Shown here: positions 10,167-16,708 of the stretch, one piece after another | Layout: every line of letters begins with the position of its first letter | How positions within the stretch are numbered: position 1 is the stretch's first letter | NCBI RefSeq assembly: GCF_025822765.1 | Contig: NZ_JACKUK010000012.1 | Span: forward strand, 124,001 to 188,000 | Reading direction: 5' to 3' | DNA: 64,000 bases | Origin: Mycobacterium barrassiae | GTDB taxonomy: Bacteria > Actinomycetota > Actinomycetes > Mycobacteriales > Mycobacteriaceae | Notes under the pieces: generated by a model | Database searches by the model: none | What the model was told of the DNA's origin: nothing | What the model saw: only the letters and a program-made list of their open reading frames with translations | Position numbers and translations under genes: made by a program

Positions 10167-11627
10167 ATGAGCTCGTCTGAAAATCCCACGAACGGCACCG
10201 CTCAGATCGGGGTCACCGGCCTCGCCGTGATGGGATCCAACCTCGCGCGCAACTTCGCGCACCACGGATACACCGTGGCGCTGCACAACCGGTCTGTCGC
10301 CAAGACCGACGCGCTGTTGGCCGAACACGGCTCGGAGGGCAAGTTCATCCGCAGCGAGACCATTCCCGAATTCCTTGCCGCCCTTGAGAAGCCGCGCCGA
10401 GTGATCATCATGGTCAAGGCCGGCGAAGCGACCGACGCCGTGATCAACGAGCTCGCCGACGCGATGGAGGAAGGCGACATCATCATCGACGGCGGCAACG
10501 CGCTCTACACCGACACCATCCGTCGGGAGAAGGCGATCCGCGAGCGCGGCCTGCACTTCGTCGGCGCGGGCATCTCCGGCGGCGAGGAGGGCGCCCTGAA
10601 GGGGCCGTCGATCATGCCCGGCGGGCCTGCGGAGTCGTACAAGTCGCTCGGACCGCTGCTCGAGGAGATCTCCGCACACGTCGACGGCGTGCCCTGCTGC
10701 ACCCACATCGGCCCCGACGGCGCCGGACACTTCGTGAAGATGGTGCACAACGGCATCGAGTACTCGGACATGCAGCTGATCGGCGAGGCCTACCAGCTGC
10801 TGCGCGATGGGTTGGGACTGACGGCGCCCGAGATCGCCGATGTGTTCGCCGAATGGAACAAGGGCGACCTGGACAGCTTCCTCATCGAGATCACCGCCGA
10901 GGTGTTGCGGCAGACCGACACCAAGACAGGCAAGCCGCTCGTCGACCTCATCCTCGACGAGGCCGAGCAGAAGGGCACCGGCCGGTGGACGGTGAAATCG
11001 GCGCTCGACCTCGGGGTGCCGGTGACGGGGATCGCCGAGGCGGTGTTCGCTCGTGCGCTGTCGGGCTCTGTCGCCCAGCGCAAGGCCACGACGGGTCTGG
11101 CGTCCGGCGATCTGGGCGAGAAGCCCAGCGATGCAAAGCAATTCATCGACGACGTGAGCAAGGCGCTGTACGCGTCGAAGATCATCGCCTACGCGCAGGG
11201 CTTCAATCAGATACAGGCCGGCAGTGCCGAATACAACTGGGGTATCAACCCGGGCGATATGGCGACCATCTGGCGCGGCGGCTGCATCATCCGGGCCAAG
11301 TTCCTCAATCGCATCAAAGAGGCCTTCGACGAGAACCCCGAGCTGCCGACGCTGATCGTGGCGCCGTACTTCCGCAGCGCCATCGAGTCCGCGATCGACA
11401 GCTGGCGACGTGTCGTGGTGACCGCGACGGAGCTCGGCATCCCGATCCCTGGCTTCTCGTCGGCGTTGTCGTACTACGACGGGCTGCGCACCGAGCGGCT
11501 GCCCGCCGCGCTCACGCAGGGCCTGCGCGACTTCTTCGGCGCCCACACCTACGGCCGCATCGACGCCGACCCGAGCGCGCGGTTCCACACGCTGTGGAGC
11601 GGCGATCGCAGCGAGATCGAGGCCTAG
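10167..11627 (+). CDS. gnd: 6-phosphogluconate dehydrogenase, decarboxylating
   Basis: Gnd converts 6-phosphogluconate to ribulose-5-phosphate and CO2, producing NADPH in the pentose phosphate pathway. The 486-residue protein has the N-terminal GVTGLAVMGSNLARNFA Rossmann motif (about residues 11-27), the DGGNALYTDTIRR substrate segment (about 111-123), the GAGISGGEEGA motif, the catalytic FVKMVHNGIEYSDM segment (about 190-203) and a long helical C-terminal domain. The length matches the long, dimeric Gnd class. A GAAAGG site precedes the ATG. It occupies the Rv1844c (gnd1) position. Confidence 0.96.
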   Translation: MSSSENPTNGTAQIGVTGLAVMGSNLARNFAHHGYTVALHNRSVAKTDALLAEHGSEGKFIRSETIPEFLAALEKPRRVIIMVKAGEATDAVINELADAMEEGDIIIDGGNALYTDTIRREKAIRERGLHFVGAGISGGEEGALKGPSIMPGGPAESYKSLGPLLEEISAHVDGVPCCTHIGPDGAGHFVKMVHNGIEYSDMQLIGEAYQLLRDGLGLTAPEIADVFAEWNKGDLDSFLIEITAEVLRQTDTKTGKPLVDLILDEAEQKGTGRWTVKSALDLGVPVTGIAEAVFARALSGSVAQRKATTGLASGDLGEKPSDAKQFIDDVSKALYASKIIAYAQGFNQIQAGSAEYNWGINPGDMATIWRGGCIIRAKFLNRIKEAFDENPELPTLIVAPYFRSAIESAIDSWRRVVVTATELGIPIPGFSSALSYYDGLRTERLPAALTQGLRDFFGAHTYGRIDADPSARFHTLWSGDRSEIEA

Positions 11628-11712: not shown

Positions 11713-13161
<1,449 letters not shown>

Positions 13162-13229
13162 GCCCCTCGGCCCGCCGCCACCGGCTACCATAGATTTCAC
13201 TTTTTCAGCGCCTACTCGAAAGGGACCCT

Positions 13230-13370
13230 GTGCCGCAGGCACCCGTTGAGGCCGCGAGCTTCCGGGCCGAGCGGCCCGGCGACGAACCGTCCGACGCCGA
13301 GCCCTCTTCTAGTCGGCCGGGCGGAAGGCCCGGCTCACTACCGGCGAGACCACGAGGACTCTCGGCATGA
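13230..13370 (+). CDS. short proline- and acid-rich leader ORF before the CNNM genes
   Basis: A GTG at 13230, four bases after a GAAAGGGA ribosome site, opens a 46-codon frame. Its TGA overlaps the ATG of the first CNNM gene as ATGA (13367-13370), so translation of the two would be coupled. The peptide begins [10 protein letters not shown], has nine prolines and six acidic residues, and has no hydrophobic segment. Its coding region contains four exchangeable GC-rich hairpin arms. A -10-like TAGATT lies at 13191-13196. The layout resembles leader peptides that control Mg2+ transporter genes in enteric bacteria. That role is inferred. The peptide could also be an incidental frame. Confidence 0.5.
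13262..13334 (+). promoter_or_regulatory. candidate attenuator: four mutually exclusive hairpin arms
   Basis: Arm A CCGGGCC (13262-13268) pairs with arm B (13273-13279) around a 4-base loop, and arm C GCCGGGC (13316-13322) pairs with arm D (13328-13334) around a 5-base loop. B and D lie in identical octamers GGCCCGGC (13273-13280 and 13327-13334). A can therefore also pair with D, and C with B. This 1:2/3:4 versus 1:4/2:3 choice is the classic layout of an attenuator. All arms lie within the leader ORF, so ribosome position would decide which pairs form. Confidence 0.5.
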
Positions 13371-14728
13371 CACTCGCCACCTCGCTGCTCTCCATCGCCG
13401 CCATCATCCTGCTGACCATCGGCACCGCGGTGTTCGTCGCCGCGGAGTTCTCGCTGACCGCACTCGAACGCAGCACCGTCGAGGCCAACGCGCGCAGCGG
13501 CGACCGTCGCGACCTGATGGTGCAGCGCGCCCACCGCACGCTGTCGTTCCAGCTCTCCGGCGCACAGGTGGGCATCTCGATCACCACGCTGGCCACCGGC
13601 TACCTGGCCGAACCCGTCGTCGGGCGGCTGATCCGGCCCGGTCTGGACGCGATCGGTGTGCCCGAACGCTTCGCCGGCGGCCTCGCGCTGTTCTTCGCCG
13701 TGGTGATCGCCACCTCGCTGTCGATGGTGTTCGGCGAGCTGGTGCCCAAGAACCTGGCGGTGGCCAGGCCGGTGCAGACGGCGCGCTGGTCGGCGGGCCC
13801 GCAACTGGTGTTCTCGACGCTGTTCACCCCGCTGATCCGGCTGACCAACGGCACCGCCAACTGGATCCTGCGCCGACTGGGCATCGAGCCTGCGGAGGAG
13901 TTGCGCTCGGCCCGCTCCCCGCAGGAACTGGTGTCACTGGTGCGCAGCTCGGCACGCAGTGGCGCGCTCGATCCCGTCACCGCGGTGCTCGTCGACCGAT
14001 CCCTGCAGTTCGGTGAACGCACCGCCGAGGAATTGATGACCCCGAGGGCGAAGATCGAAGCGCTGGAATCCGACGACACCGCCGCAGACCTGGTGGCCGC
14101 GGCCATCAAGACCGGCCACTCACGTTTCCCGATCATCCAGGGCGATCTCGACGAGACGATCGGCATCGCGCACGTCAAGCAGGTGTTCGAGGTGCCCGCG
14201 GCGCGTCGCAGCACCACCCCGTTGGCCAGCTTGGCGCTGCCCATCGCCAAGGTGCCCTCGACGCTCGACGGCGACGCGGTGATGACACAGATTCGTGCCA
14301 ACGGATTGCAGACCGCACTCGTCGTCGACGAATACGGTGGCACCGCGGGCATGGTCACCATGGAGGACCTCATCGAGGAGATCGTCGGCGATGTGCGCGA
14401 CGAGCACGACGTCGAACCCCCCGACGTGGTTCCCGCAGGCAAGGGCTGGCAGGTGTCGGGGCTGCTTCGCATCGACGAAGTCGCCGAGGCCACGGGTTTC
14501 CGTGCGCCCGAAGGCGATTACGAAACCATCGGCGGACTGGTGCTCGAGAAGCTCGGGCACATTCCCGAGCAGGCCGAGTCGGTGGAGTTGACGGCGTTCG
14601 ACCCCGACGGCGTCGCGCTGGACGACCCGATTCGCTGGCTGGCCACCGTGGTCCGCATGGACGGCAGGCGCATCGACCTGCTCGAGCTGACCGAACTCGG
14701 CCGCCGCAGCACAGGAGATGAGAGCTGA
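13367..14728 (+). CDS. CNNM/CorC-type membrane protein (DUF21, CBS pair, CorC domain)
   Basis: The 453-residue protein has the full CNNM layout: a DUF21 transmembrane domain (about residues 1-190) with the [13 protein letters not shown] motif, a CBS pair (about 215-340) starting at [10 protein letters not shown] and including [17 protein letters not shown], and a C-terminal CorC/HlyC domain (about 350-440). CNNM/CorC proteins are linked to Mg2+ or Co2+ transport or efflux; older annotations call them hemolysins. GAGGA precedes the ATG by eight bases. Its start overlaps the leader ORF and its stop overlaps the next CNNM gene (TGATG). It is the Rv1842c counterpart. Confidence 0.9.
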
Positions 14729-15792
14729 TGGGCGGCGACATCTTCGGCGTGCTGCTGACCGTGCTGTTGCTCGGCGCGAACGCGTTCTTCGTCGCGTCGG
14801 AGTTCGCGCTGATCTCGGCGCGTCGCGACCGGCTCGAAGCGCTGGCCGAGCAGGGCAAGAAGAGCGCGGTGACCGTCATCCGCGCCGGCGAGAACCTGTC
14901 GCTGATGCTCGCCGGAGCCCAGCTGGGCATCACGATCTGCTCGATCCTGCTGGGCCGGGTCGGCGAGCCCGCGGTCGCGCATCTGCTGGAGAAGCCGTTC
15001 GATCTTTTCGGCATCCCCGACTCGGTGCTGCACACGGTGTCGTTCTTCGTCGCACTTGCCGTCGTGGTGACGCTGCACGTGCTGCTCGGCGAGATGGTCC
15101 CGAAGAACATCGCGATCGCCGGGCCCGAATCGGCGGCGATGCTGCTGATCCCGGTCTACCTGGTCTACGTCCGGCTGGCCCGCCCGTTCGTGGCCTTCTA
15201 CAACTGGTGCGCCAACACCACGTTGCGCGCCATGGGGGTCGAACCGAAGGACGAACTCGACGTCACGGTGTCGACCGTCGAGCTGTCCGAGATGATCGCC
15301 GAGTCGGTGTCTGAGGGGCTGCTCGACCAGGAGGAGCACAGCCGGCTGACCCGCGCTTTGCAGATCCGCAACCGCGTCGCCAGCGACGTTGCCATGCCGC
15401 TCAGCGAGATCAGGACCGTCCCGGTGGCGCGCGAGGGCTGCGGGCCCACCCTGGCGGCGATCGAGGAGGCGCTCGCCGAAACCGGCTACTCGCGCTTCCC
15501 GGTCAGCGGCCTGTCCGGCGAGTTCGTGGGGTACCTGCACATCAAGGACGTCCTGCCGCTGGTCGACGACCCCAACACGGACAACGCCGTGCTGGACGCC
15601 TCGATGGTGCGGCCGCTGCCGCGGGTGCCGGCGTCGATGTCGCTGCCCGACGCGCTCTCAAGGCTGCGACGGGAGAACGCTCACCTGGCACTGCTGACCG
15701 CGCCCGACGGCAGCATCTCGGCGATGGTCGCGCTGGAAGACCTGGTCGAGGACCTCGTCGGCACCGTGCGCGACGGGACCCACCGTGTCTGA
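14728..15792 (+). CDS. CNNM-type membrane protein lacking the CorC domain
   Basis: This 354-residue paralogue of the preceding gene has the DUF21 membrane domain with LLGEMVPKNIAIAG (about residues 118-131) and a CBS pair ending in AMVALEDLVEDLVG. The protein stops right after the CBS domains, so the C-terminal CorC/HlyC domain is missing. M. tuberculosis has the same long/short pair (Rv1842c/Rv1841c). The one-base overlap with the upstream gene implies a fixed ratio of the two proteins and suggests a heteromeric transporter, which is inference. Metal transport is a family-level assignment. Confidence 0.88.
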   Translation: MGGDIFGVLLTVLLLGANAFFVASEFALISARRDRLEALAEQGKKSAVTVIRAGENLSLMLAGAQLGITICSILLGRVGEPAVAHLLEKPFDLFGIPDSVLHTVSFFVALAVVVTLHVLLGEMVPKNIAIAGPESAAMLLIPVYLVYVRLARPFVAFYNWCANTTLRAMGVEPKDELDVTVSTVELSEMIAESVSEGLLDQEEHSRLTRALQIRNRVASDVAMPLSEIRTVPVAREGCGPTLAAIEEALAETGYSRFPVSGLSGEFVGYLHIKDVLPLVDDPNTDNAVLDASMVRPLPRVPASMSLPDALSRLRRENAHLALLTAPDGSISAMVALEDLVEDLVGTVRDGTHRV

Positions 15793-16708
15793 TGCGCTCG
15801 TGCTCGACGAGCGCGATTGGACCGCCCGAGCACAACACCACCGCGACCGCGTCGACGACTTCCTACGGGTCTACCGCTCGCCGGCCGGGCAGCCCCACCC
15901 CGTCTGGGACTTCCTGTTCACCTACTACAGGTTGCGGCCCCGGCAGCTGCGGTGGTGGCATCCCGGGTTCGGTGTCGTGCTCGCGGGCGACTCGGCGGCT
16001 CGCTATCTGGGCCGCACCGGCTACGGCCGCGCACCGCACGGGGTGACCGTGACCCGCGACTACCTCCAGAGCCGGGCCGAGACCGTGCGGTTCATCACCA
16101 GGCTGTTGCGGGCGACCGCGTCGCGGCCGGCGCGACTGAACTGCTTCGGGCTGCACGAATGGGCGATGGTCTACCGGGCGCGGTCCGTGCGCCACGACCG
16201 TGTGCCGCTGCGGCTGGGCGCCGAAGGCACGGATGCGGTGGTCGAATCGATGCCGTTGCGGTGCAGCCATTTCGACGCCTTCCGGTTCTTCACCGACCCT
16301 GCGACCGAGCTCAACAGCGAGCAATTGTCCCGCGACGGCCAGATCCACTCGGAGCAACCGGGCTGCCTGCACGCCGCGATGGATTGCTACAAGTACGCCT
16401 ACAAGCTGGGGCCGCTGGTCGATTCGATGCTGGTGATGGACTGTCTCGACCTCGCAGCGCAGGCCCGTGAACTCGACATGCGGGCCAGCCCCTACGATCT
16501 TCGCGACTACGGATTCGAGCCGATCGCCATCGAGACGCCGGCGGGACGGGCCGAATACGTGCGGATCCAGCAGCAGATTGCCGACCGGGCAGCGCCGCTG
16601 CGGGAGCGGCTGGCGCAGCGGTGCGAGGCGCTGCTCGCCACCGCGGTGAACCGCGCGACAACGGAAGCGGTCGAGCGCGAAAAAGCCGCAGCGGGAGCGC
16701 AGGAATAG
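15785..16708 (+). CDS. conserved actinobacterial protein, often labelled 3-methyladenine DNA glycosylase
   Basis: The 307-residue product begins with LDERDWTARAQHH and has HPVWDFLFTYYRLRPRQLRWWHPG (in pieces, about residues 37-60), CFGLHEWAMVYR (about 120-131) and CLHAAMDCYKYAYK (about 195-208). I recall proteins of this family carrying a 3-methyladenine DNA glycosylase label. I do not see the HhH-GPD, AlkD or Tag motifs that would support it. The many conserved histidines, tryptophans and the H-E-W/C-Y pattern suggest an enzyme. The GTG start overlaps the CNNM stop by eight bases, so it is co-transcribed with the CNNM pair. Function is treated as unknown. Confidence 0.75.
   Translation: MSDALVLDERDWTARAQHHRDRVDDFLRVYRSPAGQPHPVWDFLFTYYRLRPRQLRWWHPGFGVVLAGDSAARYLGRTGYGRAPHGVTVTRDYLQSRAETVRFITRLLRATASRPARLNCFGLHEWAMVYRARSVRHDRVPLRLGAEGTDAVVESMPLRCSHFDAFRFFTDPATELNSEQLSRDGQIHSEQPGCLHAAMDCYKYAYKLGPLVDSMLVMDCLDLAAQARELDMRASPYDLRDYGFEPIAIETPAGRAEYVRIQQQIADRAAPLRERLAQRCEALLATAVNRATTEAVEREKAAAGAQE

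Follow-up and report, generated by a model that had tools for sequence, protein, structure and literature searches.

Low Mg2+ causes ribosomes to abort on acidic-proline chains such as the EPDP of MgtL, according to the portion of PMC11282234 drawn on here. In the consulted sections of PMC12421838, the corC and mgpA genes of Salmonella are induced as Mg2+ increases, CorC itself contains an IRD sequence, and the YoaL leader overlaps the upstream region of mgpA (YoaE) and promotes mgpA translation. For mycobacteria, excerpts of PMC4633059 describe RTGA-coupled small ORFs that resemble the leader presented below, in that the stop of a short ORF lies over the next start and coupled ribosome delivery is proposed; attenuation at ilvB1 is treated in PMC13236596, in the accessible part of which CNNM, Rv184 and magnesium do not appear. 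A literature search mostly confined to journals outside subscription returned no description of the leader presented below; it gave no paper containing Rv1842c, and by title none of those containing Rv1841c concerns this leader.

Here, we describe such a leader within a 64,000-nt stretch of the Mycobacterium barrassiae genome (hereafter the window; all coordinates refer to it). A preliminary description made from the letters had proposed that a short leader ORF controls a CNNM gene pair, an inference with which the conserved frame, the overlap and the internal RNA structure reported below agree. The gene order on the + strand runs from an ORF at 10167–11627, which we take to be 6-phosphogluconate dehydrogenase-like, through an IMPDH-domain, guaB1-like gene (11725–13161) lying 5′ of the leader ORF, to the leader ORF itself, CNNM1 (13367–14728; CNNM, CBS and CorC_HlyC domains in Pfam), CNNM2, the second of the pair (14728–15792; CNNM and CBS in Pfam), and an ORF at 15785–16708, whose 307 codons overlap the end of CNNM2 and have no match in Pfam or NCBIfam. 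The nearest named relative found was M. tusciae (L001), with 91% identity in CNNM1. Compared with solved structures, CNNM1 best matched the CorC chain 4hg0 (E 9.1e-33), over residues 184–424 only (the soluble part), and its matches to 7m1t and 7m1u, presumably archaeal CorB, also span the membrane part. Matches of the polyamine exporter PaeA to CNNM1 exist below the cut-off, and for that reason a metal cation is here a candidate substrate of CNNM. Two loci (L106, L165) carry one TGA within the CNNM1 alignment. Among the loci listed, the gap between the guaB1-like gene and CNNM1 is ~955–1106 nt in L060, L065, L066, L105 and L108, and ~200 nt in most others.

The leader ORF, its overlap with CNNM1 and its peptide

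CNNM1 orthologues were gathered by protein, yielding 100 unique Mycobacterium loci, and uORFs were sought with a finder that accepted only frames having at least a weak Shine-Dalgarno (SD) sequence together with the start motif [ATG]TGCC...GGC. Re-reading of the sequence bore out the 46-codon frame (13230–13370, +), its ribosome site and its ATGA overlap as first described: the frame opens with GTG at 13230, begins MPQAPVEA and has an orthologous uORF, starting MPQA or MPLA, in 86/100 of these CNNM-selected loci. In 80 of the 86, the stop codon shares bases with the start codon of CNNM (ATGA 54, GTGA 16, TGATG 10; in the window ATGA, 13367–13370, +), and the distance from GTG to the downstream hairpin (hairpin 2, below) takes 15 distinct values that are all equal modulo 3 (73/73, one of the 73 being Rhodococcus L080), so that the conservation across mycobacteria on which the first proposal depended is seen for both overlap and frame. 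The RTGA class is marked by a stop/start overlap and by a frame kept despite length change, both of which the leader ORF displays. In an enlarged set, the extra loci of which were picked by start motif, a uORF was found in 102/117 loci and an overlap in 95/102.

Because the finder required both start motif and SD, a uORF lacking either was scored absent; L104, for example, which has a hairpin-like block by eye and for which the upstream gene was not found, is counted among the 14 loci without a uORF. Only 7–136 nt separate the upstream gene from CNNM1 in 12 of these 14, several of them named Mycolicibacter or Mycolicibacillus, and L046 has 225 nt between the two.

The SD of the leader ORF (GAAAGGGA) lies at 13218–13225 (+). 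An SD-like string, already required in weak form by the finder and of a slightly wider pattern than the 4-mer scored at CNNM, precedes 102/102 uORFs, compared with an SD 4-mer at 38/95 CNNM starts (0.40; background 0.11), an excess over background from which it follows that some CNNM starts could work alone. The string GTGCCGCAGGCACC has a single copy in the genome of the window and is found somewhere in 209/297 genus genomes. Judged by sequence, TACCAT at 13186–13191 (+) is the probable −10 promoter element of a leader–CNNM transcript, and TA[ACG]NAT precedes the uORF by no more than 130 nt at 100/102 loci, against a shuffling expectation of 6.5. The stop/start overlap, the modest CNNM SD and the conserved frame together suggest that leader and CNNM are translationally coupled, a prediction that comparison supports well.

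The leader also bears a coding signal. Aspartate and glutamate account for 12.3% of residues in frame; the two alternative frames have 2.1% and 3.6%, shuffled sequences 5.6% and the first 300 CNNM residues 9.2%. The net charge of the chain before hairpin 2 is negative in 73/73 (mean −3.5, range −7 to −1), values that are not independent because the loci share ancestry, and the chain after hairpin 2 is positive in 62/73. The leader had been called proline-rich and acidic; its in-frame acidic bias in Mycobacterium stands, but its proline richness alone is not evidence, because proline is nearly as frequent in frame 1 (20.3%) as in the correct frame (20.7%). An acidic-Pro codon pair (GAG CCC, 13299–13304, +) lies 12–17 nt before hairpin 2, and among 72 distinct sequences a D/E codon stands at −17 in all 72 and a Pro codon at −14 in 71, the sole exception being Rhodococcus L080; since all four third bases are seen at the D/E and Pro codons, the constraint appears to act on the amino acids. 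Substitutions in the leader middle (49 neighbour pairs, peptide-based alignment with the first 8 codons excluded) number 288/253/344 at codon positions 1/2/3, a mild third-position bias.

A functional small protein would account for the MPQAPVEA start and the D/E-P that are conserved in Mycobacterium, but the middle of the leader varies freely in both length and sequence, the RNA of the start block folds into a hairpin as well, and outgroup peptides differ; we consider this reading very improbable. The 27 outgroup chains checked before hairpin 2 comprise 16 negative, 5 neutral and 6 positive ones; with 11/27 neutral or positive, acidity is no constant of the element. In two genomes of one genus (L175, L176), an arginine-rich short ORF (..RRPG[KR]RRRRR.., translated by eye) replaces the acidic one before CNNM.

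Two hairpins and a near-invariant UA

Hairpin 2 (13316–13334, +) consists of a 7-bp stem, GCCGGGC and GCCCGGC, closed by the 5-nt loop GGAAG, and was characterized by pair counts and by a covariance model, R1. Its block is present in 65/86 Mycobacterium uORFs and absent from 21/86, the named species among the latter being angelicum, colombiense, interjectum, numidiamassiliense and tilburgii, which we take to be slow growers. In 87 distinct hairpin blocks, preselected for at least 6 pairs, pairs 1–5 were always intact, pair 6 was broken in 1 and pair 7 in 5; pair 6 occurs as GC, GU or AU (one GA) and pair 7 as CG, UA, UG, AU or GC. For 54 of these 87 distinct sequences, 99.2% of cells were paired and 20 had changed on both sides, compared with a shuffle mean of 5.5, and the covariation score was 0.179 against 0.078; a sliding partner control gave at most 53.4% paired and at most 10 cells changed on both sides. 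The both-side changes are confined to two of the seven pairs, a number reached by 88/500 shuffles, and the other five pairs are nearly fixed. In L005 and L041 the peptide has changed from PG..PG to PD..SG with stem pairing kept, and on this account the RNA appears to be selected. The total folding energy of the region is not unusual (z −1.03), and energy alone would therefore not have revealed hairpin 2. In L085 (genome G002), a disrupted hairpin 2 together with an early leader end constitutes a natural broken version.

Searched against its own genome, R1 returned hairpin 2 itself as its best match (E 2.1e-7); at E<=1 its matches there number 8, the top two being hairpin 2 on either strand and the remainder weak. 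An Rfam covariance search of 12900–13700 gave nothing above threshold and no Mbox (ykoK), SorX being sub-threshold at E 1.4. A DNA operator at hairpin 2 is disfavoured because the half-sites lie 5 nt apart in some cases and 3 nt in others, and because the stem includes G-U pairs.

The preliminary description had placed four GC-rich arms, A to D, in the leader, and had proposed a switch between the pairings A:B with C:D and A:D with C:B. The identical octamers GGCCCGGC at 13273–13280 and 13327–13334 are there, and the pair 13316–13322/13328–13334 is conserved; arms A and B are not, and the two-state switch is not supported by comparison, both partner 6-mers being present in only 7/73 uORFs. A potential 6-mer partner of arm D lies upstream in 25/73 uORFs (16.7 expected by shuffling, a slight excess), and one of arm C in 18/73 (21.0 expected). 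The middle leader segment is missing altogether in L039 and L091, and the terminator sought at the leader was not found, with 0/99 blocks having at least 5 T among the 8 nt that follow the stem and 5/99 having 4. A trp-type attenuator is marked by a U-tract terminator and conserved mutually exclusive arms, neither of which the leader has. A trp-style attenuator sensing proline or Mg2+ can thus draw on the arms of this window and on the slight excess of arm D partners, but the rarity of complete partner sets, the dispensable segment and the missing terminator-like site leave it with a very small probability.

A near-invariant UA (13310–13311, +) spans a codon boundary (NNU|ANN) six bases upstream of hairpin 2. 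Searching by stem arms alone, we found the UA in 64/64 Mycobacterium matches (in 64/100 loci) and in 27/29 outgroup matches (exceptions L217 and L225); it was also present in 87/87 blocks of a set whose finder favoured TA. The residues encoded there vary (S/P/T, then S/R/T/I). We considered that hairpin 2 and its 5′ UA might be bound by a factor acting in trans, be it a protein, an RNA or a ligand, that holds back or releases ribosomes on the leader. Such a site would fit a UA kept in Mycobacterium and outgroup alike while the encoded residues are free, an arm sequence that is nearly fixed, and a loop that is mostly 5 nt and 3 nt before a second CNNM subfamily; on the other hand, no binder is known, the loop varies in sequence and length, and the element has no Rfam family, so that we think this account unlikely, if worth keeping in mind.

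The distance from stem to CNNM start has its mode at 20 nt (43/72), about the reach of one ribosome, and ranges from 8 to 56 nt. That mode is in line with an unregulated coupled leader, in which the uORF would merely load ribosomes on CNNM and hairpin 2 would be a backstop holding post-termination ribosomes near the start. The over-representation of RTGA-coupled small ORFs in mycobacteria (PMC4633059, in the text consulted) and the proposal that reinitiation at leaders raises output (PMC4833913, likewise consulted in part) point the same way. However, the 8–56 nt spread in these 72 sequences, the conservation of UA and arm sequence beyond what a backstop needs, and the clustering of strong R1 matches before CNNM genes all tell against it, and we hold this simpler account to be improbable, though the most serious of the alternatives. 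The same interval bears on a programmed −1 frameshift at hairpin 2 that would fuse leader to CNNM. No stop interrupts the CNNM frame between the end of the stem and the start codon in 68/72 sequences, but 63.1/72 would be expected open by chance, stops occur in 4, and a UAG lies in the CNNM frame upstream of the stem in 70/72 distinct sequences; this is the least probable reading that we weighed.

A second stem, hairpin 1 (GUGCC-GCA-GGCAC, 13230–13242, +), encloses the leader start codon. Evidence for it within Mycobacterium is circular because the finder used the start motif, and it is outgroup stems that support it: the start codon lies within a stem of at least 4 bp in 14/19 distinct outgroup starts (3.8 expected), with arms that differ yet pair (UGCGC/GCGCA, UGCUC/GAGCA). 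Three Nocardia-like starts tested formed no start-codon hairpin. Run without a supplied structure on 14 outgroup leaders, RNAalifold returned hairpin 2 and a four-pair start-codon stem that includes a U-G pair and is broken in some sequences. By eye, in L207, L211, L216, L218 and similar loci, an SD-proximal GUGAC could pair with a GUCAC that directly follows the start-codon hairpin and partly hide the ribosome site, a pairing absent from the RNAalifold output.

Occurrence across the order

Related leaders occur in Rhodococcus oryzae (L080), Nocardia shimofusensis (L079), more genomes of the same family and the family designated f14, and hairpin 2 pairing is kept in Mycobacterium, Rhodococcus/Nocardia and other genomes of the order. 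R1 was also run on 120 genomes across the order. Among the 50 loci inspected, which exclude two matches of similar score (G414, G387) and all weaker ones, 43 have a CNNM gene no more than 350 nt downstream, whereas the other 7 do not precede one. The hairpin pattern was seen at 45 outgroup loci, some of them near-identical; 35 show an exact stop/start overlap, 9 have a start codon within −8 to +11 nt and 1 is spurious (L200).

The element precedes two CNNM subfamilies, the second ~38–42% identical to CNNM1. Before this second subfamily, in family f15, hairpin 2, here with a three-base loop, sits inside a short uORF (MIDS[SP][AV][QP]EGSSS[RQ]PG), which looks leaderless because its ATG sits six or seven bases after TAnnAT. 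One genome (G049) has the hairpin before both of its CNNM genes (L231, L275). A class-level search of 197 genomes produced 0/19 fetched matches outside the order that precede a CNNM gene, and these matches therefore look like chance. The element is also absent from several genomes, for example ones that we guess to be corynebacterium-like and Gordonia-like. In L194 and L202, leaders beginning MSDDPPST.. keep AGTACC and an RTGA overlap with CNNM and have no hairpin 2, as judged by eye.

A candidate ribosome on-ramp and its known relatives

The comparisons lend support to a conserved frame, an overlap, hairpins, a promoter-like site and linkage to CNNM, and from the overlap of the leader end with the transporter start the leader is probably a controlled entrance ramp for ribosomes. 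Our favoured reading, which on balance we judge somewhat likely to be right, is that of a translation-coupled leader that acts in cis and delivers ribosomes to CNNM, with hairpin 2, and in mycobacteria also the acidic chain, as an elongation checkpoint; translation, reinitiation, the checkpoint and the direction of control are what we infer beyond the conserved features. Briefly, RNA polymerase would start at the promoter near 13186–13191, and leader translation would begin at GTG 13230, with initiation tuned by the weak hairpin around the start codon. Ribosomes would then cross hairpin 2, terminate at the TGA overlapping the CNNM1 start and reinitiate there, and since CNNM1 is often without an SD, its output would depend on how many ribosomes reach the end of the leader. 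Hairpin 2 may slow the ribosome while the short acidic-proline chain occupies the tunnel; in mycobacteria, the D/E-P at the stem approach would be the kind of chain that destabilises ribosomes at low Mg2+. Low Mg2+ or another ribosome stress would thus lead to drop-off and less CNNM, and ample Mg2+ would let ribosomes pass and yield more of the probable cation exporter. The UA is not accounted for by this mechanism.

Mg2+ as the signal is plausible but speculative, proposed by analogy and rather unlikely in our estimation, and it is weakened by the basic (6/27) and neutral (5/27) outgroup chains. The complete version, in which an RNA-plus-peptide leader of several actinobacterial families in one order, serving two CNNM subfamilies, would be a Mg2+-gated ribosome on-ramp and a mirror image of MgtL, is accordingly offered as tentative and somewhat doubtful; were it true, ribosomes would reach the transporter start only by surviving an acidic chain where they meet a fixed hairpin. 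Being conserved, specific to its gene and equipped with a defined hairpin, the leader would provide a direct handle on the control of Mg2+ or other cation export in actinobacteria, and it adds an RNA element without an Rfam match that could help to locate CNNM operons and annotate them.

As far as the consulted parts of each source go, the leader shares single traits with several described systems. MgtL of mgtA (PMC11282234) is likewise acidic-proline and precedes a Mg2+-transport-type gene; there, an importer is switched on when translation aborts, which averts Rho-dependent termination, whereas at the CNNM leader a probable exporter would be switched on through coupling when translation runs to completion. 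In the excerpts of PMC8092293, mgtQ of Salmonella, which controls Mg2+ transporter translation, is, as here, an acidic short ORF overlapping stem-loops, but it differs from the CNNM leader in having 8 codons, mutually exclusive stems near the RBS and no described stop/start overlap. YoaL–MgpA (PMC12421838) offers a leader that overlaps the start region of a CorC-domain gene, raises its translation and belongs with high-Mg2+-induced genes, a likeness of description, not of sequence, and no hairpin like that of the CNNM leader is described in the sections consulted. The pe20 uORF of M. tuberculosis (PMC12810186, seen in part) is mycobacterial and Mg2+-related like the candidate here, but depends on an Mbox riboswitch, to which this locus has no match. 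Finally, the small ORFs in the excerpts of PMC4633059 are mainly leaderless and some are conserved in placement only, whereas the CNNM leader has a conserved hairpin, a conserved start block and gene specificity across the order. The coupled uORF, the hairpin and the acidic leader are thus each of a known kind; what appears to be new is that they are combined, that the combination is dedicated to CNNM genes and that it is spread across families of a single order.
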